DNA of 64,000 nt from Salinimicrobium sediminis (lineage in GTDB: Bacteria; Bacteroidota; Bacteroidia; Flavobacteriales; Flavobacteriaceae): contig NZ_OCMF01000003.1 in the NCBI RefSeq assembly GCF_900215295.1, positions 310,001-374,000 of the forward strand, given 5' to 3'. A model generated the notes under the pieces. The model did not search any database and was not told where the DNA came from. It saw only the letters and a program-made list of their open reading frames with translations. Of this stretch, positions 3,785-60,051 are shown piece by piece. Each line of letters opens with the position of its first letter. Position 1 is the stretch's first letter. The position numbers and the translations under genes are program-made.

Positions 3785-3896
3785 GAAGTTAGAGGTACGA
3801 AGTTAGAAGTACGGGTTGGGATAACTCGCAACTCGCAACTAGCAACTCGCAACTCGCAACTAGCAACTAGCAACTCGCAACCCGACACCCGCAACT
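3785..3896. repeat. heptad repeat array, 16 units
   Basis: Sixteen consecutive 7-bp units in perfect phase. The first part uses GAAGTTA/GAAGTAC-type units and the second CGCAACT/AGCAACT units. The AGTT core of the first half is complementary to the AACT core of the second, so the array is a loose inverted repeat. It lies between the tmRNA 5' end and the next gene on the other strand. Confidence 0.9.
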
Positions 3897-3965
3897 GCCA
3901 AATTACAGTTCGGTAAAGTCTTGGCTCCTGATTCTTGTTTCTTTTTAATCGCCCCTTATAATTGC

Positions 3966-3973
3966 TATCTTTG
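3966..3973 (+). promoter_or_regulatory. -7 promoter element TATCTTTG
   Basis: Exact match to the Bacteroidota sigma consensus TAnnTTTG, 30 bp before the ATG at 4004. No convincing -33 TTG at the usual spacing. Confidence 0.55.
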
Positions 3974-4003
3974 AAACTATCCAAACAAATAAAAGTATTT
4001 TTA

Positions 4004-5221
4004 ATGATAAAATTCGGACTTATAAAGGAGCGAAAGACCCCGCCCGATCGCCGGGTGGTTTTTTCACCACTAAAGCTTGCAGCTGCGCGTGATGCCTTCC
4101 CCGAAGCCTCTTTTTTAGTAGAAAGTTCAGAGCTTCGCATCTTTCCCGATGAAGCATACCGCCAACAGGGATTTGAGGTTACAGAAGATATGACCTCCTG
4201 TGATGTGTTGTTGGGGGTGAAAGAAGTGCCCCTGCCTCATCTCATTCCTAATAAAAAATACTTTTTCTTCTCCCATACCATAAAGAAGCAACCCTATAAC
4301 CGGGATCTTTTGAGGGAGATCCTTAAAAATAATATTGAACTCTATGATCATGAAGTGATCATCAATAAGAGAGGCGGGCGATTAATAGGCTTTGGAAGAT
4401 ATGCCGGCCTTGTGGGGGCCTATAATGGTTTCCGCGGAATAGGTCTCAAAAATGGCATTTTTGAACTCCCTAAAGCAGAAGTTCTTCCAGATCTTAATGC
4501 CATGTTGGCAGAGCTCGATAAAATTTCTGTTCCGCCGTTAAAGATCGTTCTTTCCGGAAACGGAAAGGTGGCGCATGGCGCGTGCGAGATCCTGGACCAC
4601 CTTAAAATTGACAAAGTAGACGTTGATGATTTTCTTAATAAAGACTTTGAAGGTCCTGTTTACTGCCAGATTGATGTGCTTGATTACAACAAACGCATTG
4701 AGGGAGGAAAGGGCACCAATAAAGAGTTTTACAAGCATCCTGAAAAATATAAGTCTGATTTTCTTCGGTTCGCACAAGCCGCCGATTTTTTTATAGCCGG
4801 TCATTTCTACGGCGAGGGAGCCCCGGTATTTTTCACTGCTGAAGATGCCAGGAGACATGATTTCAGGATAAAATATGTAGCTGATATTTCCTGTGATATC
4901 AATGGTCCTATTGCCAGTACCATACGACCTTCTACCATTGCAGAACCATTTTATGGCTATGATGCCGACGGTGAACGGGAGGTAGATTTTCGGGAGGATA
5001 AGGCCATTCTTGTTATGGCTGTAGATAATCTTCCCTGCGAATTGCCAAAAGATGCCAGTGAAGGCTTTGGAGAAATGTTTCTGAAGCATGTAATCCCTGC
5101 ATTCTTTAATGGGGATAAGGACGGTATTTTAGAAAGAGCCAGGATGACCCAAAATGGGAAACTTACACCCCGTTTTGAATACCTCACAGATTATGTAAAA
5201 GGCGAAGAAATAGGCATATGA
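4004..5221 (+). CDS. saccharopine/alanine dehydrogenase-like NAD(P)-dependent oxidoreductase
   Basis: A 405-aa protein with the N-terminal fold of alanine dehydrogenase/transhydrogenase and yeast-type saccharopine dehydrogenase (FGLIKERKTPPDRRVVFSP; …CDVLLGVKEVP…; YFFFSHTIKKQ). The residues that bind the keto-acid substrate in those families (the Arg in the ERK region, the His in the SHT motif) are visible. A nucleotide-binding segment follows at about 180-200 (IVLSGNGKVAHGACEIL), slightly unlike a standard GxGxxG. The reaction would be NAD(P)-linked oxidative deamination or cleavage of an amino-acid derivative; the substrate is not identifiable. Start: ATG at 4004; upstream in-frame codons are non-conserved. 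The stop overlaps the next start (ATGA), so the two genes are translationally coupled. Confidence 0.75.
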   Translation: MIKFGLIKERKTPPDRRVVFSPLKLAAARDAFPEASFLVESSELRIFPDEAYRQQGFEVTEDMTSCDVLLGVKEVPLPHLIPNKKYFFFSHTIKKQPYNRDLLREILKNNIELYDHEVIINKRGGRLIGFGRYAGLVGAYNGFRGIGLKNGIFELPKAEVLPDLNAMLAELDKISVPPLKIVLSGNGKVAHGACEILDHLKIDKVDVDDFLNKDFEGPVYCQIDVLDYNKRIEGGKGTNKEFYKHPEKYKSDFLRFAQAADFFIAGHFYGEGAPVFFTAEDARRHDFRIKYVADISCDINGPIASTIRPSTIAEPFYGYDADGEREVDFREDKAILVMAVDNLPCELPKDASEGFGEMFLKHVIPAFFNGDKDGILERARMTQNGKLTPRFEYLTDYVKGEEIGI

Positions 5222-6048
5222 ACAAACCGGTACTTAATCTTTTGATCCTGCTTTTTGCTGCCTTTCCCGTGGAGGCGCAGCTCAAAGTGATGAGCTACAA
5301 TATCAAGTATGCCAACGAAAATGATGGAGAGAACAGCTGGTCACAAAGGAAGGATCATCTGGCATCTCAAATTCAGTTTTACGAACCTCACATTTTTGGA
5401 GTACAGGAGGCATTGCATAGTCAACTGGAATTTTTAAGTGGCGAATTGTCGGGTTATGATTACTTCGGAAAGGGTCGTGATGATGGAGCTGAAAAAGGGG
5501 AATTCAGTGCTATTTTTTACAAGACTCAAAAGTTTGAACTTCTGGAACAGGGAACCTTCTGGCTCTCACCAACGCCCGAAACTCCCGGAAAAGGTTGGGA
5601 TGCAGATTATCCAAGGGTTTGCACCTACGGAAAGTTCAGGGAAAAGAAAACCGGCAAAGAATTCTGGGTTTTTAATACTCATTTTGACCATGTGGGAGTT
5701 ATAGCAAGAGCAGAAAGTGCGCAATTGATCCACAGCAAAATCCGTGAACTCAACAAGGAAGAAAAACCAGTGATCCTCATGGGGGATCTCAACCTGGAAC
5801 CGGACACAAAAGAGATCAACTTCCTCTCCGGACAATACAACGATTCAAAAAAGGCAGCTGAAAAGGTTTTTGGTCCCGAAGGTACATTTAACGGGTACGA
5901 TTTTCTTTCCCCCGTCACCCGGCGAATTGATTACATTTTTACTACCCATGGGATAAGGGTGAAAAAATATGCGGTACTAAGTGATTCTAAAGATCTGCGG
6001 TATCCTTCAGATCATCTTCCGGTTTTCGTAAAGCTGAAACTTCCTTAA
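5218..6048 (+). CDS. secreted endonuclease/exonuclease/phosphatase-family protein
   Basis: A 276-aa protein with a signal peptide (LNLLILLFAAFPVEAQ, about 1-20). The metal-dependent EEP fold shows its motifs in order: MSYNIKY (Asn), GVQEAL (catalytic Glu), NTHFDH, GDLNLEP (Asp and Asn) and C-terminal SDHLPV (Asp-His). Members hydrolyse phosphodiesters or phosphomonoesters of nucleic acids, lipids or sugars; the periplasmic flavobacterial members have no fixed substrate. Its ATG overlaps the stop of the upstream dehydrogenase gene by ATGA. A bidirectional terminator follows at 6068. Family assignment is firm, substrate unknown. Confidence 0.88.
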   Translation: MNKPVLNLLILLFAAFPVEAQLKVMSYNIKYANENDGENSWSQRKDHLASQIQFYEPHIFGVQEALHSQLEFLSGELSGYDYFGKGRDDGAEKGEFSAIFYKTQKFELLEQGTFWLSPTPETPGKGWDADYPRVCTYGKFREKKTGKEFWVFNTHFDHVGVIARAESAQLIHSKIRELNKEEKPVILMGDLNLEPDTKEINFLSGQYNDSKKAAEKVFGPEGTFNGYDFLSPVTRRIDYIFTTHGIRVKKYAVLSDSKDLRYPSDHLPVFVKLKLP

Positions 6049-6067
6049 AAGGACTTTTTTGAAAGCA

Positions 6068-6094
6068 AAAAGCCACGAAAATCGTGGCTTTTTT
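6068..6094. terminator. bidirectional terminator
   Basis: AAAGCCACGA / TCGTGGCTTT with an AAA loop, A-run before and T-run after. It serves both the plus-strand hydrolase gene and the convergent channel gene. Confidence 0.9.
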
Positions 6095-6113
6095 ATCCTT
6101 TTTGCTGAAGGAT

Positions 6114-7565
6114 CTAGGTTGGATTTATAGGATCATTCGGGCCGGATCCTGCAGGTCCGTTGTTATCCGGATCCCGTGATGGATTATCTCTTCTGGAATT
6201 AGATCCCTGGTTATCCCCCGGTTTGGGTGGATTTGGTTTTGCAGGATTGCTTCCGGTAATGCCTCCCGGATTGTCACCCGAAATTCCTCCGGGTTTTGGA
6301 GTACTGGCATTTCCGGCTCCTGTTCCTTTAGGAAGGAAAGCGCTGCCGGTATTCCTTACATCAGGATTGTCTTTGTTGGGATCTCTGGCTTCCGAAGCTT
6401 CTTTTCTGAACTTCTGAATGATATCTTTAAAATGCTCTCCTGCAGCCTCACGGCCTCCTAATCCATAACTTAAAGCAACGGCAACTGCAATCGCTCCCAG
6501 GATCAATCCGAAGGCAAGCTCCACGATCTCATTGGCAATACCCATGGTACGAAGTGCAATGGCTATGAACAGCGCTAAAGAAGCCCATCTTACAACTCCC
6601 GCAATAAAATTGTTTTTGCTGGAGCGGGTCATGGTATTGTAGATCAACAGAGAAATGTAATTACCAATAGCAAGGATGATAAGCCCGAATAGGATTTGTC
6701 CGGTGATCTCCAGGATCTGGTGTAGAATTTCGGTCAATCTTGACAAGCCCAGTATTTCTACCGCGGTAATAATTCCGAAGAAGACAAGGAAGAAATAGAT
6801 AAGATTTGCCACGAGTTTGGACAGGGATTGCCCTGCGCCTATCATATTATGGATCTGTATCTTTTCTGCAGTGCGGTCAAGCCCCATGCTTTTGAAAAGG
6901 TCTTCCAGGAAATTCGCAAGGTACTTTCCACCCCAAACAAACACAATAAGAATTAGAGCTGCGATCACGATCTCTCCTATGAGTTCTGTGAATCCATAAA
7001 GGATATCATTGGCAGGTTCTGATATTGCATCCAGCTGTAAGGTGTTGAAGGCCTGGATTAGGAAGGGGACAAAAATGACAATAAAAACGATCTTGCGAAT
7101 TATGTTCACCAGTTTATCGGTGTCCTTAAAGCCGGTCTTGTCAACCCATCTGTCAACTATGTCGCCCCCTATGTAGATCAAATTGGAAACAAATTTTGCG
7201 AGGATGTATCCAATAAAAGCAATTAGCACCGCACCTATAAGATTAGGAATGAACATTAGGAATTCGTTGACCATATTTTCCAATGGGGTAAGAACTTCAC
7301 TAATGCCAAGGATCTCAAGAACGATCAATAGCACAATGATCATGATGAGGTAATAGAAAATATTGGCTACAAAAACGTTGGTGTCTTTATTGTTTCCTCT
7401 TCCAAAAACCCTTTCATCCCAGGAAGTTTTTCTAAGTAATTTTACTATAACGGCTTTAATGCCTTTCGCGATCAACCAACCTACCAGGAGTACCAGCAAA
7501 GCTGCAAGAAGATCGGGCAAGAAATTGGCGATACGATCGCCAATGTGTTCCAATTGTGTTTCCAT
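6114..7565 (-). CDS. mechanosensitive-channel-type membrane protein (conserved TM helix repeats)
   Basis: A 483-aa polytopic protein. Residues about 15-380 contain repeated glycine-rich hydrophobic segments (LLVLLVGWLIAKGIKAVIVKLL, shortened here; IGAVLIAFIGYILAKFV; ILFGLIILAIGNYIS) typical of the small-conductance 'conserved TM helix' family related to MscS. The segment GLILGAIAVAVALSYGLGGR resembles the pore-lining helix and glycine-rich end of MscS. The last ~100 residues are an extended hydrophilic tail of N, P, G, D and S (about 400-483), of low complexity and probably disordered. It is monocistronic between a bidirectional terminator and a 300-bp leader. Likely role: relief of turgor at the inner membrane. 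Confidence 0.8.
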   Translation of the reverse strand: METQLEHIGDRIANFLPDLLAALLVLLVGWLIAKGIKAVIVKLLRKTSWDERVFGRGNNKDTNVFVANIFYYLIMIIVLLIVLEILGISEVLTPLENMVNEFLMFIPNLIGAVLIAFIGYILAKFVSNLIYIGGDIVDRWVDKTGFKDTDKLVNIIRKIVFIVIFVPFLIQAFNTLQLDAISEPANDILYGFTELIGEIVIAALILIVFVWGGKYLANFLEDLFKSMGLDRTAEKIQIHNMIGAGQSLSKLVANLIYFFLVFFGIITAVEILGLSRLTEILHQILEITGQILFGLIILAIGNYISLLIYNTMTRSSKNNFIAGVVRWASLALFIAIALRTMGIANEIVELAFGLILGAIAVAVALSYGLGGREAAGEHFKDIIQKFRKEASEARDPNKDNPDVRNTGSAFLPKGTGAGNASTPKPGGISGDNPGGITGSNPAKPNPPKPGDNQGSNSRRDNPSRDPDNNGPAGSGPNDPINPT

Positions 7566-7874
7566 AATTTATTCTTTTTTTAAGATAGTTAGTCTTTGAA
7601 GTTAAATTAAAAAGCACTTATGCCACAGTTACTTAACAAGAGTTTAAAAAAAATTTTGGGGTTGTTGTTAATATTTTTTTAATCAGAATTTGAAGATTTG
7701 TGACAGACGAAATTAGGTGTAGCAAGGGCTGAAAGGAATTGCCGATTTTCAGAAAAAATCTGAAATTTTTTTTCAACAGTGTTTAGTTAATAAGAAAGCA
7801 ATGAGCCCTCTTTTATAACTGCGGAATTAAAATAACTTTACTCCTCTTTCAAGTTAAAACAAAAACAAAACGCC
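7566..7874. other. AT-rich divergent intergenic region
   Basis: It separates the divergent channel and RNR genes. I see no cobalamin-riboswitch core (no B12 box) and no strong hairpin. TAACTTTA at about 7832-7839 is a near match to TAnnTTTG and could be the RNR promoter. Confidence 0.35.
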
Positions 7875-14702: not shown

Positions 14703-14713
14703 ATTTTAAAAAG

Positions 14714-14748
14714 GTAGAAGTACGAAATTAGAAGTACGAGTTTAGGGT
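14714..14748. repeat. heptad array, 5 units
   Basis: GTAGAAG TACGAAA TTAGAAG TACGAGT TTAGGGT. It shares the GAAGTACGA theme with the array at 3785. Confidence 0.75.
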
Positions 14749-15610: not shown

Positions 15611-15638
15611 CTGAACTTTGAATTTTGAATCCTGAATT
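15611..15638. repeat. heptad array, 4 units
   Basis: CTGAACT TTGAATT TTGAATC CTGAATT, ending just before the stop of ftsE (minus strand). Confidence 0.7.
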
Positions 15639-22714: not shown

Positions 22715-24352
22715 ATGAAAAAATTACTCTTTTTGATCCTGAGTATAGGGGTCTTTTTTAGCTGTGACAACAACAGTAAAGAAGCTGCCGATTTGCTGGT
22801 GATCAATGCAAAGATCTATACGGTAGATGAGGAGTTTTCTACTGCGGAAGCTGTCGCCATTAAAGACGGAAAATTTCTTGCTGTAGGTACATCTGAAGAG
22901 CTTCAGGAAAAATATGACGCCACTGAAGTAGTAGATGCCGCCGGCAAAACCATTCTACCCGGACTTATTGATGCACATGCGCATTTCTATGGGCAGGGAA
23001 TGAACCTGCAGGCAGTTGATCTTACCGAAACCAAAAGCTTTGAAGAAGTGGTGAGCAGGATCGTTGAGTTTCAGAAGCAGAAGAATTCCGAATTTATTAT
23101 TGGTCGCGGCTGGGATCAGAATGACTGGGAGGTGAAGGAATTCCCGGTTAAGGATACCTTAGATGCACTTTTTCCTGATACTCCCGTTGCGATCACCCGG
23201 ATTGACGGACATGCCTTATTAGCGAATCAGGCAGCTCTCGATGCTGCCGGCATCACACCAAACACTCCTGCCGAAGGAGGTGAAATAGAGGTAAAGGATG
23301 GAAAACTCACCGGGATCCTTGTAGACAATCCGATGGCCCTGGTTGAAAATGCCGTACCCGCTACAAGTACCAAAGATCAGATCACTGCTTTGCTGGATGC
23401 CCAAAAAGAGGTTTTTCAGTATGGTCTAACTACCATAAACGATGCAGGTCTTGACAGGCAGGTTATCCAATTGATCGACAGTTTACAACAGGCTGGAGCT
23501 TTGGATGTGCGAATCTATGCCATGATTAGCAACACCAAAGACAATCTGGATTATTTCCTGGATAAAGAGCCGCTAAAGACAGATAAGCTGAATGTGCGCT
23601 CCGTAAAATTCTATGCAGATGGTGCCCTTGGTTCCCGCGGTGCTGCTTTAAAGCAGCCTTATTCAGACAAGCACGACCATTTTGGAGCGCTGTTATCTTC
23701 AGTAGCCGAATTCAAGGAAACTGCTGCACGAATTGCTGCCTCTCCGTATCAAATGAACACCCATGCAATTGGAGATTCTGCAAATGTGGTTGTTCTTAAG
23801 ACATATGACTCTTTACTTGCAGATGCAGGGGACAGGCGTTGGAAAGTGGAGCATTCACAGGTTATCGACGAGGAGGATTTTAAATATTTCAGCAAGAATA
23901 TAATTCCTTCTGTACAGCCTACTCATGCCACCAGTGACATGTATTGGGCGCAGGACAGGCTGGGACCTGAAAGAGAGAAAGGAGCCTATGCCTATAAGCA
24001 GCTGTTGGACCAGGCAGGAATAATTGCATTAGGAACAGATTTTCCGGTAGAAAAAGTAAGTCCGTTTTTGACATTTTACGCTGCTGTTATAAGAAAAGAT
24101 ACTAAAGATTATCCCGAAGGTGGTTACATGCCCGAGCAGGCTTTGAGCAGGGAAGAAGCGCTTCGCGGGATGACCATTTGGGCTGCGTACAGCAACTTTG
24201 AAGAAGATGAAAAAGGTTCCATAGAACCGGGAAAGTTTGCCGATTTTGTCATTTTAGACAAAGATCTTATGGAAGTTCCCGAAGCTGAAATCCCTGAAAT
24301 GAAAGCTAATGCTACCTATTTAGGAGGGAAAAAAGTATTCAGTGCTCAGTGA
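22715..24352 (+). CDS. amidohydrolase-family lipoprotein (YtcJ-like)
   Basis: A 545-aa protein with a lipoprotein signal (LFLILSIGVFFSC, lipobox Cys about 17). The metal-dependent amidohydrolase-3 fold shows LPGLIDAHAHFYGQG (metal His pair), RIDGHALL, KFYADGALGSRGA, NTHAIGD, KVEHSQVI and GTDFPVE near the C terminus, all typical of YtcJ-like exoenzymes and N-substituted formamide deformylases. The substrate is probably an N-acylated or cyclic amide and the location is the periplasmic face. The stop codon lies inside a heptad array (24338-24365), so the last codons may have been shaped by it. Confidence 0.9.
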   Translation: MKKLLFLILSIGVFFSCDNNSKEAADLLVINAKIYTVDEEFSTAEAVAIKDGKFLAVGTSEELQEKYDATEVVDAAGKTILPGLIDAHAHFYGQGMNLQAVDLTETKSFEEVVSRIVEFQKQKNSEFIIGRGWDQNDWEVKEFPVKDTLDALFPDTPVAITRIDGHALLANQAALDAAGITPNTPAEGGEIEVKDGKLTGILVDNPMALVENAVPATSTKDQITALLDAQKEVFQYGLTTINDAGLDRQVIQLIDSLQQAGALDVRIYAMISNTKDNLDYFLDKEPLKTDKLNVRSVKFYADGALGSRGAALKQPYSDKHDHFGALLSSVAEFKETAARIAASPYQMNTHAIGDSANVVVLKTYDSLLADAGDRRWKVEHSQVIDEEDFKYFSKNIIPSVQPTHATSDMYWAQDRLGPEREKGAYAYKQLLDQAGIIALGTDFPVEKVSPFLTFYAAVIRKDTKDYPEGGYMPEQALSREEALRGMTIWAAYSNFEEDEKGSIEPGKFADFVILDKDLMEVPEAEIPEMKANATYLGGKKVFSAQ

Positions 24353-24365
24353 TCAGTGTTCAGTT
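24338..24365. repeat. heptad array overlapping a stop codon, 4 units
   Basis: TTCAGTG CTCAGTG ATCAGTG TTCAGTT. It includes the TGA (24350-24352) of the amidohydrolase gene. Confidence 0.75.
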
Positions 24366-24404
24366 TTTTTAATAAGTTTGAGCAGTAAAATATAGAACTA
24401 ATGA

Positions 24405-24468: not shown

Positions 24469-24496
24469 CTAAACCTTAAACCTTAAACCTTGAATA
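24469..24496. repeat. heptad array, 4 units
   Basis: CTAAACC TTAAACC TTAAACC TTGAATA, directly before the terminator of the minus-strand lipoprotein gene. Confidence 0.75.
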
Positions 24497-26544: not shown

Positions 26545-26598
26545 TTCTTTAGGATGATTATGTATTGTACTAGATATCAGGGTTGTTTTTAACTGTTC

Positions 26599-26619
26599 CG
26601 AGTTGCGGGTTGCGAGTTG
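26599..26619. repeat. heptad array, 3 units
   Basis: CGAGTTG CGGGTTG CGAGTTG. It is the reverse complement of the CAACCCG/CAACTCG units at 27062 and 3827 and lies upstream of the four-helix-bundle gene. Confidence 0.75.
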
Positions 26620-26676: not shown

Positions 26677-27048
26677 ATGGCACAATCTTATAAGGAACTT
26701 GAAATTTATTCTATATCTCTTACTCTCTTTTACAAGATCCACTCCTTAAGTCTTCAGCTGCCAAAACATGAACTTTATGAATTGGGCAGCCAGATTCGCA
26801 GGTCTGCAGATTCAGTAAATACTAATATTGTGGAAGGATATGGCCGTAGAAGATATAAAGCTGATTTTCTGAAGTTTCTTGTCTATTCTCACGCAAGCAA
26901 TGACGAGACGCTAAATCATCTGGAGAAACTCGTTCATCTGTATCCCGGCATAATGAAGGACCATCTTTATCTACAAAAGGAGTATAATAGCCTTGGGGGA
27001 AAAATAAATTCTTTTATAAAATACGTGGAAACTTCGTGGAAAAGCTGA
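26677..27048 (+). CDS. four-helix-bundle protein (S23/IVP family)
   Basis: A 123-aa helical protein of the 23S-rRNA intervening-sequence-protein family. Helix 1 has the typical YKELEIYSISLTLFYKIHS; then LPKHELYELGSQIRRSADSV, IVEGYGRRRYKADFLKFL and a C-terminal helix (YNSLGGKINSFIKYVETS). In leptospires such genes lie inside rRNA intervening sequences; in Bacteroidota they occur alone. Related bundles (Avd) serve diversity-generating retroelements, but no reverse transcriptase is visible here. It is bracketed by heptad arrays in opposite orientation, at 26599 (GTTG units) and 27062 (CAAC units). No terminator or strong promoter (near match TATCTTTT at 26644). The role is unknown. Confidence 0.9.
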   Translation: MAQSYKELEIYSISLTLFYKIHSLSLQLPKHELYELGSQIRRSADSVNTNIVEGYGRRRYKADFLKFLVYSHASNDETLNHLEKLVHLYPGIMKDHLYLQKEYNSLGGKINSFIKYVETSWKS

Positions 27049-27061: not shown

Positions 27062-27117
27062 CAACCCGCAACCCGCAACCCGCAACCCGTAACCCGCAAC
27101 CCGTAACCCGCAACACT
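27062..27117. repeat. heptad array, 8 units
   Basis: CAACCCG four times, then TAACCCG, CAACCCG, TAACCCG, CAACACT. It ends two bases before the stop of the minus-strand NamZ-like gene. Confidence 0.92.
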
Positions 27118-29674: not shown

Positions 29675-30655
29675 ATGGAATACGCTGAAAACATACTGGG
29701 TACTATCGGAAATACTCCTCTCGTTAAGATCAATAAATTGACAGAAGGTATAGACGCACTGGTGCTTGCAAAATATGAAACCTTTAATCCTGGAAATTCG
29801 GTAAAGGACCGCATGGCGGTGAAGATGATCGAGGATGCCGAAGCCGCCGGACTTCTAAAACCCGGAGGGACCATTATTGAGGGAACTTCCGGAAACACCG
29901 GGATGGGACTTGCCCTTGCTGCCATTGTAAAAGGTTATCGCATGGTTTGTGTGATGGCCGATAAACAATCCAAGGAAAAAATTGACATTTTACGCGCGGT
30001 AGGAAGCGAAGTGGTGGTTTGTCCCACCAATGTGGCGCCAGATGATCCTCAATCCTATTATTCCACTTCTAAACGTCTTGCTGAAGAAACTCCAAACTCC
30101 TGGTACGTTAATCAGTACGACAATCTTTCGAATACTAAAGCTCATTATGAAAGCACGGGACCTGAGATCTGGAGACAGACCGATGGAAAAGTGACTCATT
30201 TTGTTGTTGGGGTTGGTACGGGCGGAACAATTTCGGGCGTTGGAAAATACCTGAAGGAACAAAATCCGAACGTTAAGGTTTGGGGCGTGGACACCTATGG
30301 CTCTGTTTTTAAGAAGTACCACGAGACCGGGGAATTCGATGAAAACGAGATCTATCCCTATGTGACTGAAGGGATTGGAGAGGATATCTTGCCAAAGAAT
30401 GTGGATTTCAGCATCATTGACGGCTTTACAAAAGTAACCGATAAGGATGCGGCTATCTATACTCAAAGACTTGCCAAAGAAGAGGGAATGTTCCTCGGGA
30501 ACAGTGCAGGAGCTGCTATAAAAGGTTTGCTTCAGCTAAAAGAGCATTTTAAGAAGGATGATGTAGTAGTGATCCTTTTCCATGACCACGGCAGTCGCTA
30601 TGTGGGTAAAATGTTCAATGACGACTGGATGCGGAAAATGGGATATATAGAATAA
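29675..30655 (+). CDS. PLP-dependent cysteine synthase / cystathionine beta-synthase
   Basis: A 326-aa fold-type II PLP enzyme. TPLVKINKL, the PLP lysine in NPGNSVKDRMA (about 43), the phosphate-cradle EGTSGNTGMGLA, and GVGTGGTISGVGKYL are present, followed by GDGITE-like YVTEGIGEDILP. It forms cysteine from O-acetylserine or serine, or cystathionine from serine and homocysteine. The YVTEGIGEDILP and DVAPDDPQSYY-type segments resemble cystathionine beta-synthase more than CysK, but no CBS regulatory domain is attached. The ATG at 29675 fits the family start. The last codon lies at the edge of a heptad array. Confidence 0.85.
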   Translation: MEYAENILGTIGNTPLVKINKLTEGIDALVLAKYETFNPGNSVKDRMAVKMIEDAEAAGLLKPGGTIIEGTSGNTGMGLALAAIVKGYRMVCVMADKQSKEKIDILRAVGSEVVVCPTNVAPDDPQSYYSTSKRLAEETPNSWYVNQYDNLSNTKAHYESTGPEIWRQTDGKVTHFVVGVGTGGTISGVGKYLKEQNPNVKVWGVDTYGSVFKKYHETGEFDENEIYPYVTEGIGEDILPKNVDFSIIDGFTKVTDKDAAIYTQRLAKEEGMFLGNSAGAAIKGLLQLKEHFKKDDVVVILFHDHGSRYVGKMFNDDWMRKMGYIE

Positions 30656-30688
30656 GAGTCAAGAGCCTAGAACCAAGAAGCTAGACTT
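30654..30688. repeat. heptad array overlapping a stop codon, 5 units
   Basis: AAGAGTC AAGAGCC TAGAACC AAGAAGC TAGACTT. The first unit shares two bases with the TAA of the synthase gene. Confidence 0.75.
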
Positions 30689-37486: not shown

Positions 37487-38656
37487 ATGAACAGCAGATA
37501 TTTTACAGAAGAGCACGAATTATTCAGGAAAAGCTTCCGGGAATTTTTACAAAAGGAGGTGGTGCCGCATATTGAGAAATGGGAAAAAACCGGCACTATT
37601 GAGCGTTTTATCTGGAAGAAATTTGGGGACATGGGCTACTTTGGACTCAATTATCCGGAGCAATACGGCGGACTCAATCTGGACATTTTTTATACGGTGA
37701 TCTTTCTCGAAGAATTACAAAAGATCAACAGCGGCGGATTTGCTGCTGCAATGTGGGCACATGCTTATCTTGCCATGACTCATGTTGCAAAAGAAGGCGA
37801 TGAAGCTATTAAGGAAAAATATCTTACAGGCAGTATAAGCGGTGATCTAATTGGTTGTCTGTGTATCACTGAACCCGCAGGGGGAAGTGATGTAGCCGGA
37901 ATGAAGACTACAGCCGTTAAAAAGGGTGATAAGTATGTGATCAATGGATCAAAAACCTTTATCACCAACGGGGTTTATTCAGATTATTTGGTAGTGGCAG
38001 CCAAGACAAACCCGGAATTAAAGAATAAAGGGATGAGTATCTTTATCGTGGACCGCGATACTCCCGGAATTTCTGCTACCAAACTTGATAAATTGGGATG
38101 GAGAGCGTCGGATACTGCCGAGATTGCTTTTGATAATGTAGAGATCCCGGCTTCCAACTTAATGGGAGAAGAAGGCAAAGGTTTCCCTTATATCATGCAA
38201 CACTTCGCCTTTGAGAGGCTTATTATGGGGATCAATGCGCATGCCCGTGCTCAATTCGCAATAGATTATACATTGCAGTACATGAGCGAAAGAGAAGCTT
38301 TTGGCAAGACTATTAATAAATTCCAGGCACTGCGCCACAGCATGGCCGAAATGGCAAGTGAGGTGGAGATGGCGACAGAATTTAATTATTCCATTGCCGA
38401 AAGAATGAAACGAGGGGTCTACGTAGTTAAAGAAGCCAGTATGTCAAAACTTTTATCTACCAAGATCGCAGATGAGGTGATCTACAAATGTCTTCAGTTC
38501 CTCGGGGGGTATGGATATATGGAAGATTACCCATTGGCAAGACTTTCAAGAGATAGCCGTTTAGGTCCAATTGGGGGTGGAACTTCAGAGATCCTAAGGG
38601 AGATCATTGCTAAGATGATCATCGATGGGAAGGAATATAAGCCGGCAGCGGAATAA
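37487..38656 (+). CDS. acyl-CoA dehydrogenase
   Basis: A 389-aa flavoprotein that oxidises acyl-CoA to 2-enoyl-CoA with FAD. Signatures: CLCITEPAGGSDVAGMKTTA, FITNG, GWRASDTAEIAFDNVEIP, AHARAQFAIDYTLQYMSER and the C-terminal QFLGGYGYMEDYPLARLSRD with the flavin/CoA-binding Arg region. The catalytic base of the family lies in the GGYGY / E region (…GGGTSEILREIIA…). Full length. It precedes a 12-unit heptad array. Pathway could be fatty-acid or branched-chain degradation. Confidence 0.9.
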   Translation: MNSRYFTEEHELFRKSFREFLQKEVVPHIEKWEKTGTIERFIWKKFGDMGYFGLNYPEQYGGLNLDIFYTVIFLEELQKINSGGFAAAMWAHAYLAMTHVAKEGDEAIKEKYLTGSISGDLIGCLCITEPAGGSDVAGMKTTAVKKGDKYVINGSKTFITNGVYSDYLVVAAKTNPELKNKGMSIFIVDRDTPGISATKLDKLGWRASDTAEIAFDNVEIPASNLMGEEGKGFPYIMQHFAFERLIMGINAHARAQFAIDYTLQYMSEREAFGKTINKFQALRHSMAEMASEVEMATEFNYSIAERMKRGVYVVKEASMSKLLSTKIADEVIYKCLQFLGGYGYMEDYPLARLSRDSRLGPIGGGTSEILREIIAKMIIDGKEYKPAAE

Positions 38657-38739
38657 TTCAAGATTCAAAATTCAAGATTCAAAATACTCCGGATCTTGGA
38701 ATTTGGTTCCTGGAATTTGTTGGTTGAACTACGATGTTT
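38656..38739. repeat. heptad array, 12 units, changing orientation
   Basis: Begins one base after the stop: ATTCAAG ATTCAAA ATTCAAG ATTCAAA ATACTCC, then GGATCTT GGAATTT GGTTCCT GGAATTT GTTGGTT GAACTAC GATGTTT. The first half (TTCAA) is complementary to the second (TTGGAAT/GGAATTT) so the array can fold on itself. Confidence 0.9.
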
Positions 38740-40451: not shown

Positions 40452-40525
40452 GCCGATGTAGCTCAGCTGGCTAGAGCAGCTGATTTGTAATCAGCAGGTC
40501 GTGGGTTCGAGTCCCTCCATCGGCT
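40452..40525 (+). tRNA. tRNA-Thr (TGT)
   Basis: 74 nt; acceptor GCCGATG/CATCGGC, discriminator T, anticodon TGT in loop TTTGTAA. Identical to the copy at 63053. CCA is not encoded. Confidence 0.97.
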
Positions 40526-40764: not shown

Positions 40765-40834
40765 TAAATTCCAAACTACAAATTCCAAATACCAAATTGG
40801 GATTTGGTGCTTGAGACTTGGAATTTAAGAATTG
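40765..40834. repeat. heptad array between tRNA genes, about 10 units, changing orientation
   Basis: TAAATTC CAAACTA CAAATTC CAAATAC CAAATTG, then GGATTTG GTGCTTG AGACTTG GAATTTA AGAATTG. The AAATTC/CAAA units of the first half are complementary to the GAATTT/TTTG units of the second. The last base is the first of tRNA-Gly. Confidence 0.85.
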
Positions 40835-49570: not shown

Positions 49571-49640
49571 AGTCACCAGTAGGCAGTAAGCAGTATCCAG
49601 TTTAACTTTACTGAATACTGTTTACTCAAAACTGATTACT
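49571..49640. repeat. heptad array in the rpoB-rpoC spacer, 10 units, changing orientation
   Basis: Five units begin with AGT (AGTCACC AGTAGGC AGTAAGC AGTATCC AGTTTAA), five end with ACT (CTTTACT GAATACT GTTTACT CAAAACT GATTACT). The whole 70 bp is an imperfect inverted repeat and fills nearly the entire spacer between the two subunit genes, with the ATG of rpoC 15 bp on. Confidence 0.92.
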
Positions 49641-53988: not shown

Positions 53989-53993
53989 GAATT

Positions 53994-54650: not shown

Positions 54651-54733
54651 ATGCCTCAATAGGTTGATCTTCCTGATATCCTTACTCTGAATTATTTTTT
54701 TACCCCCGTATGTAAAACCAAAGGAAACTTTTT

Positions 54734-54752
54734 TAACTTTGTATCTCAAAGT
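54734..54752 (+). promoter_or_regulatory. -7 element overlapped by operator ACTTTG-N5-CAAAGT
   Basis: TAACTTTG (54734-54741) fits TAnnTTTG. ACTTTG-TATCT-CAAAGT (54736-54752) is an inverted repeat laid across the promoter, the same as at 55707. It suggests repression by the winged-helix protein encoded downstream. Confidence 0.7.
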
Positions 54753-54761
54753 GCTTTTTAA

Positions 54762-55388: not shown

Positions 55389-55684
55389 AAACGATCATAG
55401 ATGGTTTATATAAAGCATTCGAAAACCGGGTGCGTCTTGGAATAATGGCTGCGCTCGCCGTAAATGAAACCCTGGAATTTACTGCTCTTAAAGAGTACCT
55501 GGATGTGACTGACGGCAATTTGGCGAGCCATATGAAAGCCCTGGAAAAGGAAAAATTTGTGGGAGTAAAAAAATCTTTTATCGATCGTAAACCTAATACC
55601 AGATATTATATGACCACACAAGGGAAGAAGGCTTTTGAGGAGCATCTAAACACTCTGGAGTCTATTATTAAAGCACAAAAATAA
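55385..55684 (+). CDS. winged-helix transcriptional regulator
   Basis: A 99-aa DNA-binding protein of the MarR/ArsR-like winged-helix class: YKAFENRVRLGIMAALAVNE, LEFTALKEYLDVTDGNLASH (recognition helix region), MKALEKEKFVGVKKSFIDRK and the wing KPNTRYYMTTQGKKAFEEHL. No metal-binding or cofactor site is visible. Likely binds the palindromes ACTTTG-N5-CAAAGT found upstream of its own operon (54736) and upstream of the following gene (55707). Confidence 0.88.
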   Translation: MKTIIDGLYKAFENRVRLGIMAALAVNETLEFTALKEYLDVTDGNLASHMKALEKEKFVGVKKSFIDRKPNTRYYMTTQGKKAFEEHLNTLESIIKAQK

Positions 55685-55706
55685 AAGCCTATTTTTTTAT
55701 TTATCA

Positions 55707-55723
55707 ACTTTGAAATTCAAAGT
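55707..55723. promoter_or_regulatory. perfect 17-nt palindromic operator
   Basis: ACTTTGAA-A-TTCAAAGT. Outer half-sites ACTTTG/CAAAGT with the same 5-bp spacing as the site at 54736. It lies just downstream of the regulator gene and upstream of the gene at 55774. Confidence 0.75.
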
Positions 55724-55773
55724 ACTTTATAGAATTGCTAATTAAATTTTTTATTCACTTTAAAACTACAATT

Positions 55774-56109
55774 ATGGATCACAAAAATGAATTTACTTCA
55801 CAGGTGGGTTTTGATGCTACCCTTGCAAAAAGAATGTTGATTGGTGCAGGAATAGCCCTGGTATTTATCGCAATTTTTCTTTTCGGCGCAACCCCCAAAC
55901 CCGAATGGTCGCCGTATTGGATCTTACGACCTTTTATCATTGTTCCTTTAGCGGGAGCCTTTGGAGGGGCTTTTTATCATTTCATGGGAATTCCCCGTTC
56001 CCGGGGAGGTCTTGTAAAGGCCCTGAGCATTCTCTTTAGCTTTATAGGTTATGTAGTCATTGTTTGGCTTGGAACGGTGCTGGGATTCGATGGAACCTTT
56101 TTCGATTAA
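55774..56109 (+). CDS. small membrane protein
   Basis: A 111-aa protein with three hydrophobic segments (MLIGAGIALVFIAIFLFG; WILRPFIIVPLAGAFGGAFYHF, shortened; ALSILFSFIGYVVIVWLGTVLG). The family is sometimes named after potassium transport in databases, but nothing in the sequence proves that. The ATG at 55774 begins MDHKNEF. It follows the second palindrome by 50 bp, so it is probably under the regulator of the upstream operon. A 21-bp gap leads to the next gene. Confidence 0.7.
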   Translation: MDHKNEFTSQVGFDATLAKRMLIGAGIALVFIAIFLFGATPKPEWSPYWILRPFIIVPLAGAFGGAFYHFMGIPRSRGGLVKALSILFSFIGYVVIVWLGTVLGFDGTFFD

Positions 56110-56130
56110 TCAATAACAATATTTTAAATC

Positions 56131-57384
56131 ATGAAAACCATGAAAGCCCAAATTTTATCCGGACTTAATGATCCGGCACAACTTGAGCATTTATACCGCA
56201 GCAATAAAAGTTCTTTTAAGCGGGAGTTTATTGAATTATATCCCGAGATTAAAGACACTTCTCTGGCGGCTTTTTGGAAGGAACGTCTTTCCTTTTCAGG
56301 AGAGGAGATCAACTGGGGATCCGCCAAGGAAATATTCCTGGTGCTTCTGGGTATTATTATAACCGGTTTAACTGCAAAATTACCTGCCTTCTTCGGAATT
56401 GACGAAGATTTTTTCTATCCCAGAAATTCGGGCTTTATAGTTTTCCCTGTGCTTACAGCTTATTTCGCCTGGAAAAACAATTTGTCTAAAGGAAAAAGTA
56501 TTGTTATTGCTTTGGCAATGTTTGCCGGACTTTTATATATAAATAGCCTTCCGGATTTTCCTGAGAGCGACACTCTTATCCTGGCCTGTATCCATCTTCT
56601 GATCTTTCTGTGGTTTCTCCTCAGTATTGCCTTTGTAGGCGAGGAGGAGGACACAAATGTCGGTCGATTAAGTTTTCTCAAATTTAATGGAGACCTGGTC
56701 GTACTCTCTGCTCTAATTTGTATTGCAGGAGGTATTGTAACAGCAGTAACAATTGGGCTCTTTCAACTCATTGGACTAAATATTGAAGAGTTTTACTTTC
56801 AGAATATAGTGGTTTTTGGACTTCCGGCAGTTCCTGTAATCGCCAGTTTTCTAAATAGTACCAATCCGCAACTGGTGGGAAAAGTTTCACCCGTGATTGC
56901 TCGCCTGTTCAGTCCTGTAGTGCTGGTGATGCTGGTAATCTACCTGGGAGCTATGGCATTTTCTGGCAAGGATCCTTACAGCGACCGGGAATTCCTGCTC
57001 ATTTTCAATATTTTATTGATAGGAGTAATGGCCTTAATCTTTTTTTCTGTTGCAGAAACTTCCGGAAAAAGCAAATCCAAACCTGAGATTTATATATTGG
57101 TGTTGCTGTCTTTGGTTACCGTGGTAGTAAATGGGATCGCACTTTCTGCCATTCTGTTTCGCATTGCCGAGTGGGGAATCACTCCAAACCGCCTGGCGGT
57201 ACTGGGTGCAAATGTTCTTATCCTGGTGAACCTGCTCCTCGTAAGCTTTCAACTTCTTAAAGCTGCCTCAAAAAATTCACAGTTACACCAGGTAGGTAAT
57301 ATCATTGCCCGATACTTACCGGTATATTTTGTTTGGGCTATACTGGTAACCTTCCTGTTCCCATTAATATTCGGAATCAATTAA
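56131..57384 (+). CDS. polytopic membrane protein, DUF4153-like
   Basis: A 417-aa protein. The N-terminal 75 residues are soluble (NDPAQLEHLYRSNKSSFKRE; IKDTSLAAFWKERLSF); the remainder holds about eleven membrane segments (IFLVLLGIIITGLTAKLPAFF, shortened; VVLSALICIAGGIVTAVTIG; VVLVMLVIYLGAMAF; YILVLLSLVTVVVNGIALSA). This layout matches the DUF4153 membrane family of Bacteroidetes. No known activity. Probably transcribed with the small gene at 55774. Confidence 0.75.
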   Translation: MKTMKAQILSGLNDPAQLEHLYRSNKSSFKREFIELYPEIKDTSLAAFWKERLSFSGEEINWGSAKEIFLVLLGIIITGLTAKLPAFFGIDEDFFYPRNSGFIVFPVLTAYFAWKNNLSKGKSIVIALAMFAGLLYINSLPDFPESDTLILACIHLLIFLWFLLSIAFVGEEEDTNVGRLSFLKFNGDLVVLSALICIAGGIVTAVTIGLFQLIGLNIEEFYFQNIVVFGLPAVPVIASFLNSTNPQLVGKVSPVIARLFSPVVLVMLVIYLGAMAFSGKDPYSDREFLLIFNILLIGVMALIFFSVAETSGKSKSKPEIYILVLLSLVTVVVNGIALSAILFRIAEWGITPNRLAVLGANVLILVNLLLVSFQLLKAASKNSQLHQVGNIIARYLPVYFVWAILVTFLFPLIFGIN

Positions 57385-57437
57385 AATTCTAATGTTTTTA
57401 AACTGGTTCAGAAGTTATAATCTAAAAAATAATAAGA

Positions 57438-58163
57438 GTGAAGCTTTTATCGAAATTTGAACAATTCTACTACAAGGTAAAAGATAATGGGTGGTATTTC
57501 CTGTTCTCTATCTTTTGTCGTATAAGTCTCGCCTATGCTTTTATAGTCGCAGGTATAGTGAAGATCCTCGATGAAAGATTCGCCAGTGGGTTATCCACTC
57601 TACACCCTATGGGCGCCTATCTGGAAGCCTTACATCATACCGGTTACTATTATACGTTTATCGGAATCGCTCAGGTGCTCGCTGCCATTCTACTTTTGAT
57701 ACCAAGAACTGTAGCATTAGGTGCATTATTGTATTTCCCTATTATAGTGAATATCTGGATCTTGTCCTATGCTGTCAGGTTCGAGGGTTCTGTCATTACA
57801 TCTCCACTAATGGTAATGGCCAATCTTTACCTCCTGGTTTGGAACTATGACAGGTTAAAATATCTTCTGCCCTTAAAGAATTTTCCTGCTCATGTTTTAT
57901 TTCGGAAGCCAAACAAGTATAACTGGAAATTTCCCTATTTGTTTGTTTCAGGAGTAATTGTTGTAGTTGTTATGGCCGTTGCATTCGCTCAATATGGTCA
58001 TGAGGTGATGCCCAGGAATTCTATGGCCGACTGTAGTGACCAGTTTGAAAACACTGAAAACGAGGCTGCCGGAAGAAAATTTTGCGGATGTATACATGAG
58101 CAGGGAGAAACGCTGGAGACATGCCTGGCGAATTTTGAAAGGGATAAGAAAAATTCCGGGTAA
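57438..58163 (+). CDS. DoxX-like membrane protein
   Basis: A 241-aa protein with four membrane segments of the DoxX/MauE type (ISLAYAFIVAGIVKIL, GYYYTFIGIAQVLAAILLLIP, ALGALLYFPIIVNIWIL, VSGVIVVVVMAVAFAQYG) and a C-terminal tail with four Cys (MADCSDQFEN, FCGCIHEQGETLETCL), possibly redox-active or metal-binding. The start is a GTG at 57438; no suitable ATG lies near. It is followed by the MpaB-like gene after 89 bp; the pair could serve a quinone- or oxygen-linked pathway, which is inference. Confidence 0.75.
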   Translation: MKLLSKFEQFYYKVKDNGWYFLFSIFCRISLAYAFIVAGIVKILDERFASGLSTLHPMGAYLEALHHTGYYYTFIGIAQVLAAILLLIPRTVALGALLYFPIIVNIWILSYAVRFEGSVITSPLMVMANLYLLVWNYDRLKYLLPLKNFPAHVLFRKPNKYNWKFPYLFVSGVIVVVVMAVAFAQYGHEVMPRNSMADCSDQFENTENEAAGRKFCGCIHEQGETLETCLANFERDKKNSG

Positions 58164-58252
58164 ATGCTTTCAACTCAAAAAATCACATTCAGGTATGGAA
58201 AATGTTTTGAATAGGATTTGCTGTTGAAAGCTGGATAAAACGAAATGATATC

Positions 58253-59053
58253 ATGAAAACGGAGGAGAAGATCTTAGGGGACAGAAATCAGGTTAATTTT
58301 GTCAAACCAACATCCATCGTAAGGCAAATATGGGGAAAAGGAGATACCATACTTTTCATCTTCGCCGGTGCGGCAGCCGAATTCGCTTTGAATAAAGCTG
58401 TAGACTGGCTCTACTTTAAAGGTAAACTTCCTGCCGATCCACTTGGCAGGTTGTTTTCTACGGTTTCCTATGCCCGCCAAATTGTTTTTGCAGATAAAAC
58501 TTCAGCATTAAAAGCTATTGATGCTATTAACGCTATTCATGCTAACATTGAAGATGCACGCCGCCAAAAAATTCCCGATTGGGCTTACCGGGACGTTTTG
58601 TTCATGTTGATCGACTACTCCATAAGGGCTTTTGAGACAATGGAAAGGCAGCTTAATATTTCTGAAAAGGAGGAAGTATTTGATGTTTTTAACAGGGTTG
58701 GTAAACGCATGAGAATTACGGGACTTCCGGATAATTATTCTGAATGGACTCAGATGCGAAAGGGGCATCTGCAACATGATTTGAAATACAGTGATTTCAC
58801 TAAGGATCTTTACTTACAGTATCGAAGACATCTTGGCGCGGTCCGGTATTTTCTCCTGCTGGAAACCCAAAATCTCATTTGCCCTGAAGAAGTACGTACT
58901 TTTTTAGGTTTTTCAACACGCTCGGCTCTAAATCCTTTGCTATGGATCTATAAACTAAGCAGATATGTGGGGCTCGATAAGGTTCTAAAAGCTATAATTT
59001 TGCCGAAAAAGTATAAAAAAGAGATTCGGTCCCTGGATGTTTTTACCGGCTGA
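58253..59053 (+). CDS. MpaB/rubber-oxygenase-like (DUF2236) protein
   Basis: A 266-aa helical protein: GKGDTILFIFAGAAAEFAL, RLFSTVSYARQIVFADKTSA, ANIEDARRQKIPDWAYRDVL and a long C-terminal helical part. The layout and the segment spanning 45-130 match the oxygenase MpaB / latex-clearing-protein family (DUF2236), whose members bind heme b. The typical axial-ligand pattern is not easily assigned here. Substrate unknown. Confidence 0.75.
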   Translation: MKTEEKILGDRNQVNFVKPTSIVRQIWGKGDTILFIFAGAAAEFALNKAVDWLYFKGKLPADPLGRLFSTVSYARQIVFADKTSALKAIDAINAIHANIEDARRQKIPDWAYRDVLFMLIDYSIRAFETMERQLNISEKEEVFDVFNRVGKRMRITGLPDNYSEWTQMRKGHLQHDLKYSDFTKDLYLQYRRHLGAVRYFLLLETQNLICPEEVRTFLGFSTRSALNPLLWIYKLSRYVGLDKVLKAIILPKKYKKEIRSLDVFTG

Positions 59054-59195
59054 TCCTGTACCTCGAAAGCAATTTCTGCCATTTTTCTACTTAATACTTT
59101 AAATTGTAGGAAATAACTTAAATGATTTCTACGTTTGAATAAAAGAAATTTAAACTGAAATTATTTTTGAACCCGTTGCTCCCGAATAATCTAAG

Positions 59196-59978
59196 ATGAT
59201 CAGACACTTTCTTTTACTGATCTTCATTCTTTTTTTTGTTTCGGGCTTTTCTCAGGAGACCCTACTGAAAGGCAAAATTCTAACCGAAAGTTTACAGGGA
59301 TCTTCCATTAATATTCTTAATCTTTCCCGTGGAATTGGAACCACCAACAACACCGAAGGGGAATTTGAGATCGCTGTTAGTTTGAATGATACAATCTATT
59401 TTTCTTCAATACAGTACGAACCAAGGGAAATAGTGGTTACAGAAGACCTGTTGAAAAGGGCATTTTTGACGGTGCTTCTTGTGGAGAAAATGAATGAACT
59501 GGACGAAGTAAGCATCAGTGATATTAGCCTGAGCGGGAATATAGCTACCGATTTAAAAAATATTCCCACTCTTACCCAGGCAGATCTGGGTTTTCCAATG
59601 TCTGATGTGCCAAGGCCAACCTCCATTGAACGGAAATTAAAAACAGCTTCCAACGTTAGTACGACTTCAGCGTATAATCCTCCCGGATTGGTGAATGTAA
59701 GCCTCGATGGAATCATCAACAGGTTGAACGGAAAAATTGCAATGCTTCAAAAAGCCGCAGCCAATGAAGATCTTTCCCAAACCGTGGATGCGGGAGTTGC
59801 TGCAATGCCGGTTTCCTTTTTTACAGACCTGGCAATTCCCGAAGACCGAATTCGGGACTTTGTTTATTATTGCGCCGAAGATGCTGAATTTTCTTCCCTT
59901 TTACCCGAAACCAAACGTTTTGAGCTCATCGCATATTTTCAAACGAAAGCCCCTGAATTTATTAAAGAGCGCATGTAA
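59196..59978 (+). CDS. secreted CarboxypepD_reg-like domain protein
   Basis: A 260-aa protein with signal peptide (LLLIFILFFVSGFSQE). An Ig-like carboxypeptidase-regulatory domain spans about 23-105 (LKGKILTESLQGSSINILNL; GTTNNTEGEFEIAVSLNDTI; IQYEPREIVV), followed by a helical tail. Such domains cap TonB-dependent receptors; here no receptor part is attached. Probably periplasmic. Not in an evident operon. Confidence 0.75.
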   Translation: MIRHFLLLIFILFFVSGFSQETLLKGKILTESLQGSSINILNLSRGIGTTNNTEGEFEIAVSLNDTIYFSSIQYEPREIVVTEDLLKRAFLTVLLVEKMNELDEVSISDISLSGNIATDLKNIPTLTQADLGFPMSDVPRPTSIERKLKTASNVSTTSAYNPPGLVNVSLDGIINRLNGKIAMLQKAAANEDLSQTVDAGVAAMPVSFFTDLAIPEDRIRDFVYYCAEDAEFSSLLPETKRFELIAYFQTKAPEFIKERM

Positions 59979-60016
59979 CCGCGAGGACCAAATTCGAAGA
60001 CAGATATTTCAATATT

Positions 60017-60051
60017 AGTCTTTTCTCCTTATTCTAATCTCCTGATTCTTA
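60017..60051. repeat. heptad array overlapping the prfC stop, 5 units
   Basis: AGTCTTT TCTCCTT ATTCTAA TCTCCTG ATTCTTA. The last unit contains the TAA of prfC on the minus strand (60049-60051). Confidence 0.75.

Follow-up and report, generated by a model that had tools for sequence, protein, structure and literature searches.

Organization of the locus

The window analyzed in this work is a stretch of 64,000 bp of the genome of the marine bacterium Salinimicrobium sediminis (Flavobacteriaceae, Bacteroidota), carried on contig C6 (414,246 bp), in which a small gene of the S23/IVP family stands between two arrays of tandem 7-bp units. The gene (26677-27048) encodes a protein of 123 amino acids, an S23 four-helix-bundle (FHB) protein according to the Pfam profile PF05635 (23S_rRNA_IVP; 78.6 bits at a gathering cut-off of 33.8) and to its AlphaFold2 model. 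Comparison with relatives gave the lead that the two arrays repeat the same word in opposite orientations: on the left (5′), the arm (26595-26619) consists of GAGTTGC/GGGTTGC units, and on the right (3′), the arm (27062-27114) consists of the CAACCCG word, inverted with respect to the left one. All window coordinates in this text refer to the + strand. The intergenic space of the window contains further heptanucleotide arrays without an FHB gene beside them, designated solo arrays. Tested as sets of loci, the FHB element is a short S23 open reading frame (ORF) bounded by inverted repeats. The association of the arrays with the S23/FHB gene family is strong, and the function suggested for it below is put forward as a hypothesis.

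The AlphaFold2 monomer model of the window protein has a mean confidence (pLDDT) of 91.4. Foldseek placed the S23 structures 2GSC and 2RLD at the top of its matches (best TMq approximately 0.8), each of which holds five chains in its PDB entry, and gave weak matches to the Avd structures 4DWL and 8UBE (E 0.52, TM 0.64-0.72). A profile search located PF05635 at 10 places in the S. sediminis genome, most of them with same-word arrays on both sides when inspected by eye, and the family is present in 157 of 198 sampled Bacteroidota genomes. The FHB genes at the atpA|atpG junction are under purifying selection (dN/dS 0.03-0.09 over 10 pairs), and in-frame stops were found in 15 of the 115 rows of the genus census described below. 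The pertinent section of the literature on S23/IVP proteins assigns them no known function (PMC4990558).

Arrays flanking FHB genes

The similarity of the two arms was scored by comparing approximately 150 bp of the left flank with the reverse-complemented right flank, and the sum over the own pairings was set against permuted pairings. For the 10 FHB loci of S. sediminis the sum was 147 versus 85.2 (sd 8.8), a value reached in none of 100,000 permutations, and the own partner scored best in 9 of 10 rows. The same held for 26 loci of the genus (361.5 versus 216.8, 0 of 100,000) and for 30 loci of Bacteroidota, taken from among the best profile scores in 198 genomes and therefore not a random sample (412 versus 249.2, 0 of 100,000). 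The sums for the direct orientation were lower, 247.5 for the genus and 261 for the phylum.

The census of the genus comprises 115 rows, one locus being entered twice (L120 = L257); L133 and L258 (short or lying at the end of a contig), L178 (the frameshifted atp copy of genome G010) and a weak place, G001:C3, were left out. The inverted score exceeded the 95% point of the null in 81 of the 115 rows and the 99% point in 19. This null is conservative because it was drawn from the same loci, pairs with the same word included. Among 353 genes of contig C6 used as a control, four passed the 95% point, one of them being the window FHB gene, and none the 99% point. Direct arms above the 95% point were present in 20 of 115 rows, which brings the rows with inverted or direct arms to 89 of 115, and several lineages with direct arms exist (e.g. 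L217, L218, L221 and L130). Arrays with a period of 7 or 8 bp occur on both sides of the gene in 55 of 115 FHB rows versus 1 of 352 control genes, and at least one flank has such an array in 104 of 115 versus 38 of 352. The arms also follow a strand rule: of 44 junctions, 35 have a 5′ arm rich in G, and of 45, 42 have a 3′ arm rich in C (each plasmid locus counted as one); therefore one strand or the transcript probably matters.

Presence and absence could be followed at single junctions, of which atpA, atpG, ffh, folD, hisH, hisA, fadB and fadA were named from translations, and rpoB and rpoC by Pfam. At ffh|folD, the gene and the arms are both present in nine of 12 Salinimicrobium genomes and both missing in three (G001, G006 and G008), as judged by eye, so that at this one tested junction arms and gene come and go together. 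Eight of the nine inserts are PF05635 matches, the S. sediminis copy carrying two in-frame stops; the copy of G002 is split in two frames. At atpA|atpG, inspected likewise by eye, six genomes have the FHB gene with arms (in G010 the gene is frameshifted), G005, G007 and G009 have inverted arms of a related word without the gene, in G006 the arms are short, of the same word and likewise without a gene, and from G002 and G008 both gene and arms are missing. The fadB|fadA junction (J0; 20 rows, one locus twice) is shared by several FHB lineages with several words, and there the arms match within the element (14.9 versus 9.2, 0 of 5000 permutations).

The flanks differ in build between lineages. 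The lineage with the AENFE[KN]L motif (L108, L213, L215, L235 and L208) seems to be double-arrayed on each side, with GGGATTA and CCAATTAA words, and each flank thus resembles an inverted pair by itself. Long regular arms stand by the FHB genes of L198 and L314 (GAGGACA approximately 10 times and AAAGCTA many times, respectively), suggesting recent expansion.

Kinship of FHB proteins and array words

Close FHB relatives situated at different junctions tend to share the word. The arm similarity of pairs from different junctions was 8.8-9.2 at an FHB identity below 60%, and 13.4, 15.6 and 18.4 at identities of 60-70, 70-80 and >80% (51, 23 and 9 pairs, respectively). With one locus per junction (38 junctions), word and FHB kinship were correlated with a Mantel r of 0.219, not reached in 5000 permutations; the rank correlation over all FHB pairs is slightly negative (-0.03), and the closest pairs come from few lineages.

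A clear arm period was found in 110 of 145 FHB loci, namely 7 bp in 91, 8 bp in 17, 6 bp in one and 9 bp in one, which contradicts the statement of the first-pass annotation of the window that the period never varies. Along the FHB tree the 7/8 label changes six times versus a mean of 16 for shuffled labels (minimum 11 in 2000 shufflings), and shared junctions contribute to this result. Among the nearest relatives from other junctions, a period-8 neighbour was found for nine of the 17 period-8 loci.

Periodicity of the arrays

The reality of the heptanucleotide period was assessed by lag scans in which clusters reaching 12 or more matches out of 14 at the tested lag were counted separately in intergenic and coding DNA, ORFs of at least 80 amino acids serving as the gene mask. 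At lag 7 the window has seven intergenic clusters versus none in coding DNA, and at lag 14 nine versus none; lags 3-6 and 8-13 gave no intergenic cluster. The whole contig C6 has 18 versus 0 clusters at lag 7 and 17 versus 2 at lag 14, with just 0-2 intergenic clusters at each remaining lag within 4-13. Tandem intergenic units of 7 bp thus exceed other unit lengths, as heptanucleotide simple sequence repeats should, and the intergenic excess anticipated in the first-pass annotation is confirmed for both the window and the contig.

The comparison set consisted of 76 other loci. In 29 of them, mostly from Bacteroidota, lag 7 gave the most intergenic clusters (12), followed by lags 8 and 14 (7 each), and in 32 mixed loci lag 7 (16) was again first, before lag 14 (11) and lag 8 (9). 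The same scan found no lag-7 intergenic cluster in 15 loci of Bacillota.

Thirteen places in the window had been listed as 7-bp arrays, and ten of them stand: the lag-7 score is at least 10 at 3785, 15611, 24338, 24469, 26599, 27062, 30654, 38656, 40765 and 49571. Two others have a 14-bp period only, 14714 with 4.0 at lag 7 and 12.0 at lag 14, and 60017 with 3.0 and 11.5. The last one, 14436, is near background and barely tops the neighbouring lags (7.0 at lag 7 versus 6.5 at lag 5).

Solo arrays

The 25 solo arrays of contig C6 were compared with the arms of 26 FHB elements (the 10 of S. sediminis and one for each other junction of the genus), with 20 unit-permuted controls. The sum of best matches was 446.5 versus 292 for the controls, whose maximum was 311.5, and 14 of the 25 solo arrays exceeded all their controls. 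The units of different loci are thus not unrelated, a correction to the first-pass annotation. The order of the units is common to 14 array pairs (26 arrays), versus a mean of 9.85 and a maximum of 13 in 60 order-shuffled sets. No signal was seen in how solo arrays are oriented with respect to co-directional gene pairs (7 versus 4).

Particular words are dispersed over the genome. The ACTGATC word gave 81 hits at 42 places in S. sediminis and the reversed-pattern control none, and a 29-mer of the GAAGTTA word is exact at three places. Among 12 genomes of the genus, ACTGATC hits number 22-168 in the seven that possess its FHB lineage versus 0-10 in the five others (p 0.0027). Of the latter, G001, G006 and G008 are without the lineage and have 0, 3 and 0 hits (G006 and G008 being 75% and 74% complete), G002 with a broken divergent copy has 0, and G009 with a divergent form has 10. 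For GAAGTTA/GAAGTAC the figures are 2-23 hits in six genomes versus 0-3 in six (p 0.006). Dispersed copies are therefore more numerous where the cognate gene is present, as in REPIN/RAYT systems, with phylogeny as a confounding factor. Intact FHB copies cognate to the words of L106 and L113, the S. sediminis loci to which these two words belong, occur in relatives.

Two simple accounts of the solo arrays were rejected. As relics of an FHB insertion at the same place they would be expected to have an FHB gene at the corresponding junction of some relative, and none of 23 C6 clusters had one among the 115 genus rows. The number of FHB genes as a simple predictor of array density was dismissed on account of the uneven distribution in genomes chosen by contig number and FHB count, the six FHB-free genomes, three of them GC-rich, having no lag-7 array in 320 kb.

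Remaining features of the window

The window is collinear with four Salinimicrobium species, and its NamZ protein shares 88% identity with the Salinimicrobium nanhaiense one. The first solo array (3785-3813, GAAGTTA/GAAGTAC) is the exact 29-mer mentioned above, present also at C6:399921 and C8:360056, and has the same word as the arms of L113 at hisH|hisA. It is followed by AACTCGC units (3823-3891), whose nearest arms flank the window FHB gene itself (L109; best score 24.0 versus a unit-permuted control maximum of 29.5). The array GAAGTAC/GAAATTA (14711-14745) has only a two-unit period of 14 bp. The arms of L105 match the TTGAATC/CTGAATT array (15612-15637), and those of L106 at ffh|folD match the CAGTGNT array (24339-24367), which belongs to the ACTGATC family with its 42 genomic places. 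The AAACCTT array (24470-24494) contains 3 ACCTT units in the window, and the array at the equivalent position in S. nanhaiense (L024) has 17; since the number of units differs at one place, slippage or expansion acts on existing arrays.

Downstream of the FHB element, the AAGAGCC/AAGAACC array (30654-30685) has its nearest arms in L126 of another Salinimicrobium, and the ATTCAAG/ATTCAAA array (38656-38685) is followed by partly inverted TTGGAAT units up to approximately 38721. Between tRNA-Tyr and tRNA-Gly lies an AAATTCC array (40766-40797) with an inverted partner downstream and the nearest arms in L239. An inverted CAGTNNN pair without an FHB gene (49577-49640, composed of 49577-49601 and 49607-49640) occupies the rpoB|rpoC junction, and its best FHB arm score, 10.0, is within the controls. 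The weak array TCTCCTTATTCTAA (60024-60052) has only the 14-bp period.

At the junction corresponding to that of the window NamZ gene, FHB genes occur as a tandem pair in S. nanhaiense, with arrays surrounding the two (L024, 11335-12431), and in S. terrae (L027) a short one-sided array of a similar word was seen and no FHB gene. Behind a tRNA-Thr gene (63053-63127) lie 2.6 copies of a tandemly repeated 105-bp unit that contains a terminator-like hairpin (the whole spanning 63053-63382), and a second tRNA-Thr gene with the identical anticodon is located at 40452.

Plasmids and known systems

Heptamer arrays are not confined to Bacteroidota, and matched arms are found also on cyanobacterial plasmids. 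A search of plasmid proteins with one FHB query gave 25 records, 23 of them cyanobacterial, and the arm test was applied to 19 (17 cyanobacterial ones, Azospirillum and Gemmatirosa; L321 is a broken gene). The sum for inverted arms was 312 versus 170.8 (1 of 50,000 permutations) and that for direct arms 221.5 versus 144.2 (7 of 50,000), the latter coming largely from Pseudanabaena (62.5) and Gemmatirosa (24). Among the plasmid words are AGGGAGT (Nostoc edaphicum) and AACAGGG (Nostoc C052); heptanucleotide repeats of cyanobacteria bear the label STRR. These data point to the FHB genes and arms of S. sediminis being part of a repeat system with two components that is present in cyanobacteria as well. 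No phage record matched the single FHB query, and a plasmid DNA search with the whole locus gave thiolase and dehydrogenase genes and no FHB gene among the matches listed. On three cyanobacterial plasmids (L314, L318 and L322) the FHB gene is situated among CRISPR genes, twice in the order cas6|FHB|cas4 and once as cas10/cmr2|FHB|cmr3-like. FHB genes carried as passengers could explain why '23S rRNA IVP' is shown among CRISPR-linked proteins in a published figure (PMC10910872).

Among the closest systems described so far is the intervening sequence (IVS) of the 23S rRNA of Coxiella burnetii, in which 2-3 tandem GACAGAT heptamers, variable in number between strains, lie just upstream of the S23 ORF; it has been termed a selfish element and is excised by RNase III (PMC4990558). 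Common to both are the single S23/IVP ORF, the small size and the tandem heptamers beside the ORF (PMC4990558). The FHB elements differ in lying between protein genes instead of in a 23S rRNA helix, in often having same-word arrays on both sides and in being accompanied by solo arrays; Rfam detected no 23S rRNA in the window. REPIN/RAYT systems likewise consist of a gene maintained by vertical descent and of short cognates scattered over intergenic DNA, which are more numerous in genomes with the gene (PMC8049555), but the FHB element has no tyrosine transposase, and tandem 7/8-bp arrays take the place of the palindromic REP as its cis unit. Y1/RAYT transposases were rejected as the source of the arrays, as the two Y1_Tnp genes of S. 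sediminis are, by eye, flanked by other palindromes and not by heptamers. These two genes (L332, G000:C8:119353, and L333, G000:C5:79513), each with palindromes of its own, possibly represent a separate REP/RAYT family.

Heptamer repeats have been published for Beggiatoaceae (TAACTGA), cyanobacteria, Xanthomonas and Nostoc (GGGAATC, GGGGATT) and five Bacteroidetes (PMC4679880, PMC4692102). The arrays described here resemble them in being intergenic and of varied words, and ACTGATC is one base from ACTGATA, the rotated TAACTGA. They differ in their link to S23/FHB, since the published repeats are, in the relevant parts of these papers, tied to slippage, G-quadruplexes or translation (PMC4679880, PMC4692102). 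The first-pass annotation had noted that no mechanism is accepted for Bacteroidota; the repeats as such were on record there, the TAACTGA heptamers of five Bacteroidetes among them, and the section concerned gives no mechanism (PMC4679880). In open-access PubMed Central text, as far as its matching passages go, heptamer arrays are linked to S23/FHB for Coxiella only; subscription papers were outside this search and may contain such a link. With Avd of diversity-generating retroelements the FHB proteins share a similar fold (the weak model match) and a homology stated for PF05635 and Avd (PMC10053308). In contrast to those retroelements, no reverse transcriptase was found in S. sediminis (PF00078), in a search that did not extend to template and variable repeats.

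Proposed mechanism and alternatives

It is somewhat better than an even bet (probability of about 0.57) that the heptamer arrays are the cis part of a two-component system with the S23/IVP FHB protein (PF05635) as the trans-acting partner, in analogy to REPIN/RAYT. The architecture of the elements, the co-occurrence of gene and arms, the coupling of word and lineage among close relatives and the dispersal of the words are observed; binding, action in trans and the role of host replication as the copying machinery we infer. An FHB oligomer (the solved relatives are pentamers) would bind its own word in tandem, either on DNA or on the transcript, the arrays being putative FHB binding sites and element ends. 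The protein would act on the arms of its own element and, in trans, on the solo arrays; these might spread as short non-autonomous copies in the way REPINs do with RAYT (PMC8049555). As FHB proteins have no known catalytic domain, strand transfer must come from the host, whose replication, by slippage or template switching at the arms, would supply the synthesis and subsequently change the copy number. Reverse transcriptase was rejected as the copying enzyme, since PF00078 gave no match in S. sediminis and was positive in 3 of 14 control genomes. The suggestion made earlier that an enzyme or a replication step adds 7-nt blocks survives in part. A dedicated factor is indicated because PF05635 sits between same-word arms and close FHB kin tend to share the word; an enzyme that adds arbitrary blocks is not, because the words are shared within families, multi-unit blocks recur far apart and 8-bp families exist.

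Several observations weigh against this two-component reading. In the census 34 of 115 rows are under the inverted threshold, eight of them having direct arms instead, and the inverted pairing of arrays across contig C6 is weak (reached by 54 of 20,000 permutations, with the FHB arms included in the set). Eleven of the 25 solo arrays fail to exceed all their controls. The comparison of word and lineage is confounded with phylogeny, as the genomes lacking the lineage are mostly more distant by atpA identity. In S. sediminis the FHB copies belonging to the two words studied most closely are broken (two in-frame stops in L106 and one in L113) and the solo arrays of these words are numerous all the same; therefore these arrays either predate the damage or do without the protein. 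The absence of a same-junction FHB gene for all 23 clusters means that solo arrays are not shown to be relics formed in situ. Array density tracks the FHB count poorly, nine FHB-bearing genomes (520 kb) having 13 lag-7 arrays, mostly in two of them, and at atpA|atpG arms exist without the gene in four genomes (G005, G007, G009 and G006). The within-junction test is suggestive at J4, J6 and J11 (25, 32 and 92 of 5000) and non-significant in nine other junction groups (330 to 5000 of 5000; 13 of 14 groups covered), mostly because all copies in these groups carry one word.

Pure polymerase slippage, in which 7-bp units are duplicated, selection clears them from genes and FHB genes merely tolerate or collect arrays, would account for the variable number of units at one place (3 versus 17), for the excess of lag 7 over other frame-breaking lags and for heptamer excess in many bacteria (PMC4679880, PMC4692102). 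Duplication of 7-bp units by the replication apparatus of certain bacteria is a hypothesis quoted, in part of the literature, for long simple sequence repeats. We regard slippage alone as quite unlikely, since it fails to predict the same word in opposite orientation on both sides of one gene, a single gene family flanked in this way (55 of 115 versus 1 of 352), exact multi-unit blocks far apart, or the tracking of the FHB phylogeny by the 7- and 8-bp periods (6 changes versus 16, partly confounded by shared junctions). The strand rule and the position of elements between co-directional, operon-like genes (atpA|atpG, hisH|hisA, ffh|folD) also fit an IVS acting on the RNA level, where the arms would pair in the transcript as a long stem around the FHB ORF, RNase III would cut as in Coxiella (PMC4990558) and the arrays would be kept by selection for a pairing that tolerates changes in repeat number. 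Yet the arm mismatches are not biased towards G-U (58 G-U versus 86 A-C in the 49 elements scoring at least 14, out of 65 left after repeats of the same gene start had been dropped), and selection for RNA pairing thus found no support; some lineages (L217, L218, L221 and L130) have direct arms, and many solo arrays stand singly, with no clear partner. This RNA-level explanation is therefore judged unlikely.

The reverse order of events, with arrays present first and FHB elements inserting into or next to them, would explain the FHB-less arrays at atpA|atpG at which relatives carry the gene. Insertion into one directional array would, however, yield direct arms, and 81 inverted versus 20 direct rows were seen, while the three empty ffh|folD sites have, by eye, no array; such a target preference is highly improbable. 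The chance that the arrays are assembly or sequencing artefacts, or compositional low complexity, is practically negligible: independent named genomes and plasmids recorded as complete share the architecture, the reversed-pattern controls gave 0 hits in S. sediminis and 1 hit in total over 12 genomes of the genus, and no point in favour of an artefact was found.

Implications

Bacterial heptamer repeats have been described repeatedly, in the relevant parts of these accounts without an accepted cause (PMC4679880, PMC4692102). Tentatively, and at somewhat less than even odds, the repeats found across phyla, in Bacteroidota, Cyanobacteria and, by published sequence, Coxiella, may form one undescribed class of elements, in which an FHB gene would be bounded by 7- or 8-bp words recognised by its protein and accompanied by solo arrays copied in trans, the protein setting the repeat length. 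FHB genes embedded in other systems, such as the CRISPR genes of three cyanobacterial plasmids, may accordingly be passengers and not functional partners, and arrays within conserved gene pairs may influence how these genes are expressed. Since a ligand is predicted for every FHB lineage, both the cause of the heptamers and the function of S23 are directly testable. If the reading is true, the long-known heptamer repeats of bacteria would gain an origin and the S23/IVP proteins a function.

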